Below, in pieces: positions 5,929-11,906 of a stretch of 64,000 nucleotides of DNA. The stretch lies in the NCBI RefSeq assembly GCF_000430995.1, contig NZ_HF952018.1, positions 1,306,449 to 1,370,448 on the forward strand, given 5' to 3'. Below the pieces are notes generated by a model. The model saw only the letters and a program-made list of their open reading frames with translations, did not search any database and was not told the DNA's origin. Both the position numbers and the translations under genes were made by a program. Numbering within the stretch: position 1 is the first letter of the stretch; each line of letters starts with the position of its first letter. The stretch comes from Thermobrachium celere DSM 8682. GTDB taxonomy: Bacteria; Bacillota; Clostridia; Clostridiales; Caloramatoraceae.

Positions 5929-6195
5929 GGGGACAGTTACTTATTATATTGGATTGTTTAATTAATAGACACGCATATTTATTTCATTGATCTTAAAATG
6001 GGACGGTTACTTGTTTTATTGACTTATTCGACTAAATGAGATCTTTTACTTATTTTATCAATCTATTTTCATCTTTATTTTTGTTTAGAATAAAGCAAGC
6101 CAAACTTCACTTTATTATACTTAGCTCATATATACCTCTTAAGATCTTATTTTCGCATACCAGTCATTCACAATTGGGACAGTTACTTATTTCAT
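5929..6195 (+). repeat. Cluster of four direct copies of the GGGGACAGTTACTTATT repeat
   Basis: Copies start at 5929 (GGGGACAGTTACTTATT), 6000 (GGGACGGTTACTTGTTT), about 6036 (degenerate, ending TTTTACTTATTTT) and 6175 (GGGACAGTTACTTATTT). Each is preceded by an AAAT/AATT context. Spacings are uneven (about 71, 36 and 139 bases), so this is not a simple tandem array. Confidence 0.8.
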
Positions 6196-6382
6196 AAAAA
6201 ACTCAATTAGGTTTTATAATTATCTAATCGTTTTAATAAACAATGTTTAAAACCTCAAAAAATCACAAATTATATGATTTTTATATTGTATTTATACTAA
6301 CTACAAATTTAATCGTTGTAAAATATAATATTTAAACATTTAAAACTAGCATAAAATTATCTTTAACCAGATGCTTGTCCAA

Positions 6383-6426
6383 TTTTAAAAGAAATATACT
6401 TAAGTTTTAAATCATTTCTTTTAAAA
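6383..6426. repeat. 13-bp perfect inverted repeat downstream of the transposase gene
   Basis: TTTTAAAAGAAAT (6383-6395) and its exact complement ATTTCTTTTAAAA (6414-6426) flank an 18-base spacer just beyond the transposase stop. A second small palindrome, ACTGACCTTAAGGTAAGT with one mismatch, sits at about 6441-6458, against the stop codon. Either could act as a weak terminator or as a recognition structure. Both are almost GC-free, which argues against a strong intrinsic terminator. Confidence 0.5.
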
Positions 6427-6458
6427 ATTTTAATGAAATTTACTGACCTTAAGGTAAG

Positions 6459-7364
6459 TTAATTTGCATTTAGTAAAATATACTCTACTATTCCCTCATA
6501 TTTTTTATTAAGAACTAGTTCAGAGCCTAAGCTACATAGTTTTGATACCCTTGCTTGACCAATATTCCCAAGTATTCTACATATATCTGCACATCGCAAA
6601 TCACATAGTTTTCTCAAAATAAAGCATAATAAAGCCTTCGCTTCAATTCCATCTCTTCTATATTTTAAAAGTGAATATCTATTTATATTTAACTTTTCAA
6701 TTAAAAGCATAATTATTTTTTCAGGTGAATAATCTCTAACTAATATTCTTCTCATACTTCTATATTCAGTAGGTTCCTTTGCAAATTCTTCTTTTTGTAT
6801 ATCAATAAATTTTTTCACTTTAAAAATAAATTCTCTATAGTTTGCCCTCGCTATTTTGTCGTTTAGTCCAAACATAGATAAAACAAACTTATCATCAATC
6901 AAGTTATATTTATCATCATTTAAGCCTAAATAAACTCCTAATGATGAAAAAGCATATTCCTCTGGATGATCCTCATACCCCTTAATTGCAGTAGCATTAA
7001 AATGAACGTATGCAGTTAAAGCAAATAAGTATCGTTCATTTTTAACAATCTTACTTTTAAACCTATCTTGGAATAAGTACCCATGTCTACCATGCCTCTT
7101 ATTAAAATACATAGCGTATTTATAATTTATAAAGTGCATAACTTTTGATATATCAGATCCATTTGCATCAATAACAAAATGTGCATGATTATCCATAAGA
7201 CAATAAGCGTAAACAATAAATTCGAATTGTTCCTGAGCTTTTTTCATATAGTTTAAATAACTTATCTTATCTTCATCATCTTTGAATAGGTTAACCTCTG
7301 AAATGCTCTTAACCATTATGTGATAAATAGAATCATATGACTTCTCTCTTGCCATTCTTGGCAT
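6459..7364 (-). CDS. REP-associated tyrosine transposase (RAYT, Y1_Tnp family)
   Basis: 301 residues. Residues about 1-150 are the IS200/RAYT Y1 HUH domain, opening MPRMAREKSYDSIYHIMVKS. The HUH pair is read in MDNHAHFVI (about 57-65). The segment YLFQDRFKSKIV is diagnostic of the REP-transposase group, and the catalytic tyrosine should lie in the following helix (ERYLFALTAYVHFN). The C-terminal ~140 residues look like the helical DNA-binding extension of longer Firmicute RAYTs. The frame is intact, with ATG 5 bases beyond AGGAGGTGCC. That site is trapped in a hairpin (7372-7424). Only one gene copy is present, flanked by its likely cognate repeats. Confidence 0.88.
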   Translation of the reverse strand: MPRMAREKSYDSIYHIMVKSISEVNLFKDDEDKISYLNYMKKAQEQFEFIVYAYCLMDNHAHFVIDANGSDISKVMHFINYKYAMYFNKRHGRHGYLFQDRFKSKIVKNERYLFALTAYVHFNATAIKGYEDHPEEYAFSSLGVYLGLNDDKYNLIDDKFVLSMFGLNDKIARANYREFIFKVKKFIDIQKEEFAKEPTEYRSMRRILVRDYSPEKIIMLLIEKLNINRYSLLKYRRDGIEAKALLCFILRKLCDLRCADICRILGNIGQARVSKLCSLGSELVLNKKYEGIVEYILLNAN

Positions 7365-7371
7365 AAAAAAG

Positions 7372-7424
7372 GCACCTCCTATTTTGGAAATTCATCATGT
7401 ATTATTTTTCCAAACAAGAGGTGC
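7372..7424 (-). promoter_or_regulatory. 5' hairpin that sequesters the transposase ribosome binding site
   Basis: On the minus-strand transcript, GCACCTC (7418-7424) pairs with GAGGTGC (7372-7378), and an inner TGGAAA/TTTCCA stem (7407-7412 with 7385-7390) extends it. The 3' arm contains the AGGAGGTGC ribosome site of the transposase gene, so folding would block translation. A comparable 5' hairpin is known to hide the tnpA start of IS200. That this one does the same is inference. Confidence 0.6.
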
Positions 7425-7509
7425 TATTATTCCATATATTCCTTTATTTGCTTGTTATTATAAAACTCGAATTTTTAAACTCATTATCATATTTAAACCT
7501 TAGATTATA

Positions 7510-7526
7510 AAATAAGTAACTGTCCC
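7510..7526 (-). repeat. Inverted copy of the GGGGACAGTTACTTATT repeat at the iorB stop codon
   Basis: Read on the minus strand this is GGGACAGTTACTTATTT, and its first G belongs to the TAG stop of iorB. It is the right-hand boundary of the RAYT unit. Confidence 0.8.
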
Positions 7527-8095
7527 TATATTGAAAGACCATATTTAAATGCCTTTGTGTTTATATCTACTAATTTTTCAGGTAAAACCTCTTTAATAAC
7601 GCCTTCCCAATCTAAATTTTCAAGTCCAAGGGATTTAACTAAGGCTCCTAAAATAACCATATTTTGAGTCTTTATATTACCTATTTCTTCTGCAATTTTT
7701 GCTGCATTAAACAATTTAAAGTTTACTCCTGACTTTTCAAGCTCTTCCTCAATATTTGTTGGGTAATTTTCTTTTCCTATTAAAACAGGCAATGAGAATA
7801 TTTCATAATCATTAACGATTAATTTTCCATCCTTCTTTAAATAATTTATCCACCTTGCTGCTTCAACCTTTTCAAAAGAAACAACAACATCGGCTTCTCC
7901 TTCACCTATTAGGGGGGAATATACTTTATCACCAAATCTCACTTGTGTTGTAACACTACCTCCACGTTGAGCCATACCATGAACTTCTGACATCTTAACA
8001 TCATATCCAAATTTTAATAGTCCTTCAGTTAAAATTTTTGAGGCTAATATAATCCCCTGTCCACCAACACCTACAAATAAAATGCTCTTAACCAT
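7526..8095 (-). CDS. iorB: Indolepyruvate:ferredoxin oxidoreductase, beta subunit
   Basis: 189 residues, typical for IorB. The gamma-domain fold of 2-oxoacid:ferredoxin oxidoreductases opens with SILFVGVGGQGIILASKIL, followed by EVHGMAQRGGSVTTQVRFG. With IorA it oxidatively decarboxylates aryl 2-oxoacids (indolepyruvate, phenylpyruvate) to the arylacetyl-CoA, reducing ferredoxin. The ATG overlaps the iorA stop, so the subunits are translationally coupled. No terminator separates it from the transposase element, which begins at its stop codon. Confidence 0.93.
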   Translation of the reverse strand: MVKSILFVGVGGQGIILASKILTEGLLKFGYDVKMSEVHGMAQRGGSVTTQVRFGDKVYSPLIGEGEADVVVSFEKVEAARWINYLKKDGKLIVNDYEIFSLPVLIGKENYPTNIEEELEKSGVNFKLFNAAKIAEEIGNIKTQNMVILGALVKSLGLENLDWEGVIKEVLPEKLVDINTKAFKYGLSI

Positions 8096-11594: not shown

Positions 11595-11906
11595 GGGGAC
11601 AGTTACTTATTTTTTATCAAGAGATAACAAATAGAGTTTTGGCATTAAAGATTGTAAGAACCTAAAATATTTTAAATCACCAGCGTCTATCCCCTAGTCA
11701 GTTTAATCAAAAGTAATTCATTTAGCTTATATTTTGTCATTCTATTAAAAGAGGAAGAATATTTAAATCAAAAATAATTAACCGTCCCCATTGTGCAGCT
11801 TTTTAAAATTATCCATATATAAAAAGGCAGGTATTCTAATAAATACCTGACCCAACATTTGACATAGAACATAAAATGATGTATGAAAAAATAAGTAACT
11901 GTCCCC
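11595..11906. mobile_element. Transposase-less unit bounded by the RAYT repeat (possible non-autonomous element)
   Basis: A forward repeat at 11595-11613 (GGGGACAGTTACTTATTTT) faces two inverted copies, at 11771-11789 (complement GGGGACGGTTAATTATTTT) and 11886-11906 (complement GGGGACAGTTACTTATTTTTT). No reading frame of significance lies inside, and the interior is not visibly similar to the transposase element. It lies in the 410-base gap between mgtC and pflA, the rest of which (11520-11594) is plain AT-rich leader. Its repeats match those around the RAYT gene about 4 kb away. Confidence 0.6.
11821..11849 (-). terminator. Second terminator-like hairpin downstream of pflA
   Basis: The perfect 8-bp stem CAGGTATT/AATACCTG (11828-11835 with 11842-11849) has a 6-base loop. 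On the minus strand it is followed by CC and a run of five U. It lies inside the repeat-bounded unit. Confidence 0.6.

Follow-up and report, generated by a model that had tools for sequence, protein, structure and literature searches.

We consider the element at positions 6176–7526 of the window, the 64,000-nucleotide stretch analysed here of Thermobrachium celere DSM 8682, from a heat-loving lineage of Clostridia, to be probably a TIRtron, namely, a small mobile element whose HUH/Y1 transposase recognises terminal inverted repeats (TIRs) that are its own and are specific to its clade. The element fits the TIRtron/TIRYT category, names coined in 2013 (PMC3733652), and probably belongs to TnpAY1 subclass 2.1, which was defined in 2018 and is probably the same as TIRYT according to its authors (PMC6006769). 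It is of a known kind and has several features that we did not find described: the mobility of its relatives, a match between the tail of the TIR and the protein tree, gene-less REP-like units, a DnaA domain IV fold with a candidate box, and the closeness of TIR copies to the gene. The features in the window are as follows.

6176..7526, minus strand: core element (probable TIRtron) of 1351 bp, including the TIRs GGGACAGTTACTTATT at both ends; relatives have the same architecture
7511..7526, minus strand: TIR on the 5′ side of the gene, a match to GGGACAGTTACTTATT
6176..6191, plus strand: TIR on the 3′ side of the gene, a match to GGGACAGTTACTTATT
6000..6015, plus strand: extra TIR copy in the orientation of that at 6176 (repeat match)
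5930..5945, plus strand: extra TIR copy in the orientation of that at 6176 (repeat match)
6035..6054, plus strand: degenerate TIR copy, 75% (self-comparison of the locus)
6459..7364, minus strand: transposase of 301 aa, HUH/Y1 domain and predicted DnaA domain IV-like domain (Pfam, alignment and model)
7371..7425, minus strand: predicted hairpin just 5′ of the start codon, pairing the Shine-Dalgarno (SD) sequence GGAGGTG (folding)
6373..6382, minus strand: internal box TTGGACAAGC, 76 nt 3′ of the stop codon, conserved in homologous elements
11596..11788, unstranded: gene-less TIR-TIR unit of 193 bp with an internal CCCC at 11691–11694 (TIR matches)
11890..11905, minus strand: extra TIR adjoining the gene-less unit (repeat match)

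The initial annotation described an intact Y1 transposase gene between inverted copies of a short repeat, and this description was borne out. The repeat GGGGACAGTTACTTATT occurs at seven places in the window with at most three mismatches (+5929, +5999, +6175, −7511, +11595, −11773 and −11890), compared with a mean of 0.14 and a maximum of 1 in 100 dinucleotide-preserving shuffles of the window. The annotation counted eight copies; seven stand at this threshold, and the eighth is probably the degenerate copy at 6035–6054. The two ends of the element are inverted, with 35-nt arms that are 86% complementary. With its last base, the TIR also completes the TAG stop codon (7526–7528) of the neighbouring ORF at 7526–8095, which we take to be iorB-like from reading its translation by eye; the other neighbours in the window (pfl and the like) are presumably metabolic genes, judged in the same way. 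The TIR likewise abuts the end of that ORF in the related genomes G001 and G003. In addition, three segments of another contig of the source genome (G000:C10; 1–358, 3103–3281 and 5901–6464) are 100% identical to scattered segments of the window, which is perhaps an assembly artefact.

The window corresponds to C32:1306449–1370448 of the source genome (G000). Across the 2.64 Mb of this genome, the 13-base core of the repeat occurs six times, every time in the window. The 16-base pattern with at most three mismatches matches 28 places, compared with 11 for the reversed pattern, and at most two mismatches leave eight places, namely, the seven in the window and C32:1482901. No convincing TIR copy was found in the rest of the genome. 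The initial annotation had named the absence of the repeat elsewhere in the genome as a result that would refute its reading, and the repeat is indeed absent outside the window. We nevertheless judge the association to be real, because TIR copies are many where close homologs are many and because the TIR class follows the protein tree.

The 301-aa ORF matches Pfam Y1_Tnp (E 2.8e-13), and its residues H60, H62 and Y119 are invariant among 39 homologs. In a 22-row alignment, H62 and Y119 are again invariant and H60 is nearly so, being absent from L104. Of the class 2 signature Y---NP, the window protein has Y119 and N123, and its P is replaced by A, as in the other six rows of the ACTTATT type; most other rows have P. 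An AlphaFold2 model built from 39 sequences (mean pLDDT 86) aligns at residues 2–193 with the REP transposase TnpAREP (4er8; Z 15.8) and at residues 212–301 with domain IV of DnaA (1j1v; Z 13.8, rmsd 1.6 over 90 residues). With a limit of E 0.1, 33 of the 39 homologs show Bac_DnaA_C, which was not detected in the protein of the window. As modelled, the protein is thus a TnpAREP domain joined to a DnaA domain IV fold. Its counterpart in Caloramator proteoclasticus is 83% identical. A search of the PDB by sequence gave no match to the protein, and a search of PHROGs gave nothing significant.

To compare repeats with proteins, we assembled 72 elements: 59 of at least 80 loci (21 partial or same-genome loci were omitted), 12 from the G-numbered genomes, and the element of the window. 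By a fixed rule, 59 of the 72 have a pair of TIRs flanking the Y1 gene, and 13 have no such pair. The TIR consists of GGGAC[AG]GTT (GGGACRGTT) followed by the tail AA (33), AC (10), CT (8), CA (7) or, once, another. When the four tail classes are placed on the tree of the 72 proteins (58 classed rows), seven changes suffice, compared with a mean of 23.1 for shuffled classes and none as low in 200 shuffles, a clustering that near-copies in the tree inflate. The AC class (ACTTATT), which is that of the window, forms one clade with support 100. In the comparison of repeat consensus and transposase phylogeny that the initial annotation proposed, the tail of the TIR thus agrees with the protein tree. 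Neither GGGACRGTTAACAA nor GGGACRGTTCTYAA occurs as an exact pattern in any of the genomes G000–G004 and G009, and G009 has one gene of the CT class with another tail (L078).

Homologs of the transposase occur in 37 of 60 related genomes. With fragments included, there are 15 matches in G009, 21 in Caloramator quimbayensis (G012) and 32 in Fervidicella metallireducens (G007); 13 of the 15 in G009 are full length, with identities of 66–71%. The source genome (G000) has one full gene copy listed and two matches counted. Among 10 copies of F. metallireducens, the mean pairwise identity over 40 nt at the two TIR edges is 0.81 and 0.66 inside and 0.30 and 0.27 outside. Because multi-copy relatives have such sharp TIR ends, the element should be regarded as mobile and not simply as domesticated. 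TIR copies number 210, 111 and 42 in three genomes of one genus (g6), where reversed-pattern controls give 0–1. Within 795 kb of G009, in stretches picked because repeats were already known there, 207 TIRs were found at no more than two mismatches (control 2), with 57 inward-facing neighbours within 2.5 kb. A relative can also carry the repeat without the gene: G002, of the same genus as the source, has four TIR copies and no detectable transposase gene, a case that in part touches the proviso of the initial annotation about repeats in gene-less relatives.

A clean empty site for a TIR element was not found in a synteny comparison of G009 with C. quimbayensis. Sixteen of 60 G009 blocks are syntenic in C. 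quimbayensis, and six of these have no TIR of the ACTTATT type there; of the six sites, one has another insertion, one has a TIR of another class, three are too diverged, and one has 1.39 kb of extra DNA. In the other direction, 12 of 42 C. quimbayensis blocks are syntenic in G009, and all 12 contain TIRs. The search of viral contigs returned only one match, L313 (an IMG/VR contig of 42056 bp); as G007:C24 has the same length, this is probably a chromosomal contig labelled viral.

These observations bear on two other explanations of the locus. In one, the gene is a domesticated, vertically inherited RAYT-like gene serving a host function, and the TIRs are inherited remnants or regulatory sequences. 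The single full copy listed in the source genome and its long intact frame favour this explanation, and so does the occurrence of the gene at one shared locus in three species of genus g1 (the source, Caloramator proteoclasticus, G003, and Caloramator sp. mosi_1, G004), which also fits vertical maintenance. However, the gene at that locus is broken in Caloramator sp. mosi_1 (three tblastn pieces), a 176-bp gene-less TIR-TIR unit stands there instead of the gene in G001, and copies are many in G007, G009 and G012. Moreover, sister species have nearly identical TIRs around unrelated interiors. At the site of the gene-less unit of the window (11.6–11.9 kb), G002 has a 106-bp unit and C. proteoclasticus a 231-bp unit with a different interior, a full element is represented in G001 by its gene end, and Caloramator sp. 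mosi_1 has about 4 kb with two units. The statement in the initial annotation that genes of this type are single-copy and domesticated is not supported as a general property, since close relatives are multi-copy, and we regard domestication as an unlikely explanation. In the other, the Y1 gene is a passenger, and the TIRs are those of a conventional double-strand transposase that acts in trans. A point in favour of a passenger gene is that DDE elements, and not IS200/IS605, typically have terminal inverted repeats. However, the TIR classes agree with the Y1 tree, the large majority of the 72 elements have their Y1 gene between paired TIRs, and no target-site duplication was noticed by eye at the copies read; we regard a passenger gene as very improbable.

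The distribution of TIR copies around the gene admits two explanations. In 25 genomes, 110 of 238 TIR copies lie within 20 kb of a listed homologous gene where 18.0 are expected, a count that omits the own ends of elements (<700 nt), admits genes of any class, and uses rounded genome sizes and several fragmented assemblies. The 25 are the genomes with positions fully listed or fetched; G001, G002, G004, G009 and the AA lists of G018 and G020 were omitted. P is below 0.01 in 13 of the 25. This count supersedes a first run (67 of 121 compared with 4.4 expected; 9 of 11 genomes), and it was made because the 11 genomes of that run had been picked by eye, largely for visible clustering. The local crowding may reflect either a cis-preferring spread or regions that are permissive or hypervariable. 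Permissive regions would account for the 12 of 25 genomes without significant clustering and for G009, where an unrelated RAYT has a GGTGCC palindrome that is likewise concentrated in the TIR-rich region at 1.0–1.37 Mb. In contrast, the two genes of G053 lie 1.2 Mb from each other, and each is accompanied by a separate cluster within 14 kb (together 14 of 16 non-own copies), and the neighbouring ORFs of the window read by eye as metabolic genes. We give permissive regions a little less than an even chance of explaining the crowding. A different RAYT-like gene of G009 (L079, at about 1259787 of C1; 288 aa) is flanked by GGTGCCAGGCACC hairpins, the 14-base pattern of which gives 56 strand-hits in G009 (where one palindrome may be counted twice, once per strand) and is also found within some of the nested gene-less units described below.

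The TIRs also occur as short units without the gene, 80 of which fall into 26 interior families. In other Clostridia, we found 12 close TIR pairs of 38–56 nt; 11 have perfect outer stems of 13–27 bp, and one is a perfect palindrome. Such close pairs are REP-like hairpins with GGGAC at the foot, and therefore the pair, not the single repeat, can be a hairpin. The remark in the initial annotation that the repeat is not itself a hairpin is correct for one copy, and the inverted ends of the element could pair in single-stranded DNA. No close pairs of the hairpin type (interior up to 45 nt) turned up in loci of the ACTTATT type. The notion that the TIR represents two halves of a palindromic target is unsupported, as no solo GGGACRGTTAACYGTCCC occurs among the loci scanned. 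Among units of the ACTTATT type, 23 of the 26 interior families contain CCCC, compared with a mean of 8.4 and a maximum of 14 in shuffles, and the motif often lies 22–37 nt from one TIR. An internal CCCC was rejected as a general rule. Over positions −50 to −18 of 133 non-redundant TIRs, the excess is modest (CCC, 37 compared with 20; CCCC, 23 compared with 9), and 3 of 11 units of other TIR classes contain CCCC; therefore, the motif is class-specific at most.

The outer edges of the TIRs have signatures of their own. The first base outside is T in 65% of the 133 non-redundant TIRs, C in 23%, A in 11% and G in 1%. Of 218 outer flanks, 33 have a direct repeat with a period of 7–16 that starts at the TIR edge, compared with 6–8 at four control offsets, and in 21 of these 33 the second copy includes at least two of the terminal bases of the TIR. 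Because the E. coli TnpAREP cleaves at CT on the 5′ or 3′ side of the REP (PMC8266576), we infer that cleavage may occur near CCC|T at the TIR edge. Short tandem duplications that begin exactly at the TIR edge, often with the CC of the TIR, are seen in the outer flanks of, for example, L066, L086 and L094.

A second gene-less unit is present in 42 copies (35 in G009 and seven in C. quimbayensis) of 82–383 bp, mostly 128–229, with the left end AGGTCATGAC and the right end CACACTAAC. The sequence flanking it on the left is AATAAGTAAC in 27 of 42 copies, and that on the right reads CGTCCC or CGTCCT in 28 of 42; therefore, the unit sits mostly inside TIRs. For this nested unit, an occupied and an empty site can be compared: the insertion is at AATAAGTAAC^CGTCCC, with G009:C1 at about 1087714–1087946 occupied and C. 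quimbayensis C29:69416–69431 empty. The same comparison in locus numbering is L203 (G012), 6426–6440. With tandem copies collapsed, 23 of 31 units in G009 point the same way with respect to the GC-skew arms (two-sided sign test, 0.011; the copies are not independent). Given a G-rich leading strand, the favoured orientation would be that of the lagging-strand template.

Two further features lie beside the coding sequence. The box TGGACAAGC with at most one mismatch occurs within 450 nt 3′ of the stop codon in 56 of 72 elements, compared with 1 of 72 for the antisense control and 6 of 72 for the upstream control. A looser rule (7 of 10 matches, applied with no control) finds it in 64 of 72, with the consensus TTG[GT]ACAAGC. 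Compared by eye, the box shares TGNAYAA with the DnaA box read as TGTGNATAA, and we propose that the DnaA-like domain binds it. Positions 2–3 of the box were tabulated against the recognition-helix residues, and no pattern is claimed. The possibility that TTGGACAAGC is an insertion target for the TIRs was rejected: CTTG occurs at outer +5 in 11 of 133 TIRs, one junction fits, and the full copies read are mostly without CTTG. On the 5′ side of the gene, the hairpin of the window folds at −22.5 kcal/mol (z −6.4 compared with 60 mononucleotide shuffles), and the mean z of the pre-start hairpin over the 72 elements is −2.8, also against mononucleotide shuffles. Of the 72 elements examined, 63 have a recognisable SD, and 40 of these have at least four of five SD bases paired. 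The hairpin may thus limit translation from outside transcripts. A 5′ hairpin that sequesters the SD sequence is also present in IS200.

The TIRtron/TIRYT elements of PMC3733652 resemble the present element in that a Y1 gene lies between long inverted repeats unrelated to GTAG REPs. Their TIRs have the consensus GGGGWSAS in the majority of cases, not in all, and their families occur in dimers or clusters. Two copies in the window read GGGGACAG at this motif, and the ends of the element, TGGGACAG and AGGGACAG, have one mismatch. The passages of PMC3733652 consulted make no mention of the mobility of units, TIR-protein co-variation, a DnaA-like fold, an internal box or closeness to the gene, and the stem “clostridi” has no occurrence in its main text. 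According to PMC6006769, subclass 2.1 (2.1.2) proteins are long Y1 proteins with a C-terminal Bac_DnaA_C-like domain, as is the case here; the HTH or Bac_DnaA_C domain expected of a TIRYT corresponds in the window protein to the predicted DnaA domain IV fold. The same source describes class 2 (except 2.3) as low-copy and reports that no REP-like sequences were found near 2.1 genes, whereas some relatives here are multi-copy and REP-like TIR palindromes occur. It further states that the TIR consensus is unlike DnaA boxes, suggests replication-fork targeting, and ranks subclass 2.1 as the second largest Y1 subclass, present in 14.9% of strains, with its role left open.

The RAYT/TnpAREP groups 2 and 3 (PMC8266576) share with the element the catalytic fold, gene-linked repeats and a CT cleavage that resembles the putative CCC|T edge. 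Unlike RAYTs with GTAG REPs, however, the element has no GTAG hairpin, encodes a two-domain protein and is multi-copy in some relatives. In place of the GTAG-tagged flanking hairpins of a classical RAYT/REPtron, it has the flanking repeat GGGACRGTTACTTATT, one copy of which forms no hairpin, and the protein scores 51.6 bits against NCBIfam REP_Tyr_transpos, below the cut-off of 80. The name RAYT used in the initial annotation is therefore not supported in its strict sense, and its suggestion of a cognate repeat with a recognition unlike that of GTAG-hairpin REPs is supported. Because the HUH/Y1 fold is common to IS200/IS605 (IS608 and ISDra2), a similar chemistry is expected. However, IS200/IS605 elements have palindromic ends and guide sequences according to PMC8266576, and the present element has terminal inverted repeats; a protein of 301 aa with two domains also differs from their short single-domain transposase. 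A study of these elements in Clostridia was not found in the literature covered, which takes in a minority of subscription journals, and the matches listed for the letters of the repeat look like primers.

We infer that transposition is of the single-strand type. In single-stranded DNA, the two inverted TIRs would pair to form a hairpin with GGGAC at its foot, and the enzyme would cut the foot at C|T-like steps, as is reported for the E. coli TnpAREP. The DnaA-like domain, seated on the internal box, would keep the enzyme by its own element, and spread would consequently often be local; the SD hairpin would restrict translation to transcripts starting inside the element. A bolder proposal is that TIRtrons of the DnaA-IV type form a class of insertion sequence in their own right. 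Their single-strand transposase would engage two sites: a diverged DnaA box within the element would tether the DnaA-like domain, and the HUH domain would cut the paired TIRs at C|T. We offer this proposal tentatively and consider it rather unlikely as a whole. If it is true, mobilisation would be cis-preferring and fork-linked, which would explain the crowding of TIR units within about 20 kb of the gene in many genomes.

The elements of Clostridia provide exact ends, a series of specificities between TIR and enzyme, minimal substrates of the hairpin type and a box that is a candidate for binding. With enzyme-substrate pairs defined in this manner, the recognition and spread of repeats by RAYT-like enzymes become testable. 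Furthermore, the REP-like palindromes formed from TIR pairs link TIRtrons and REPs.
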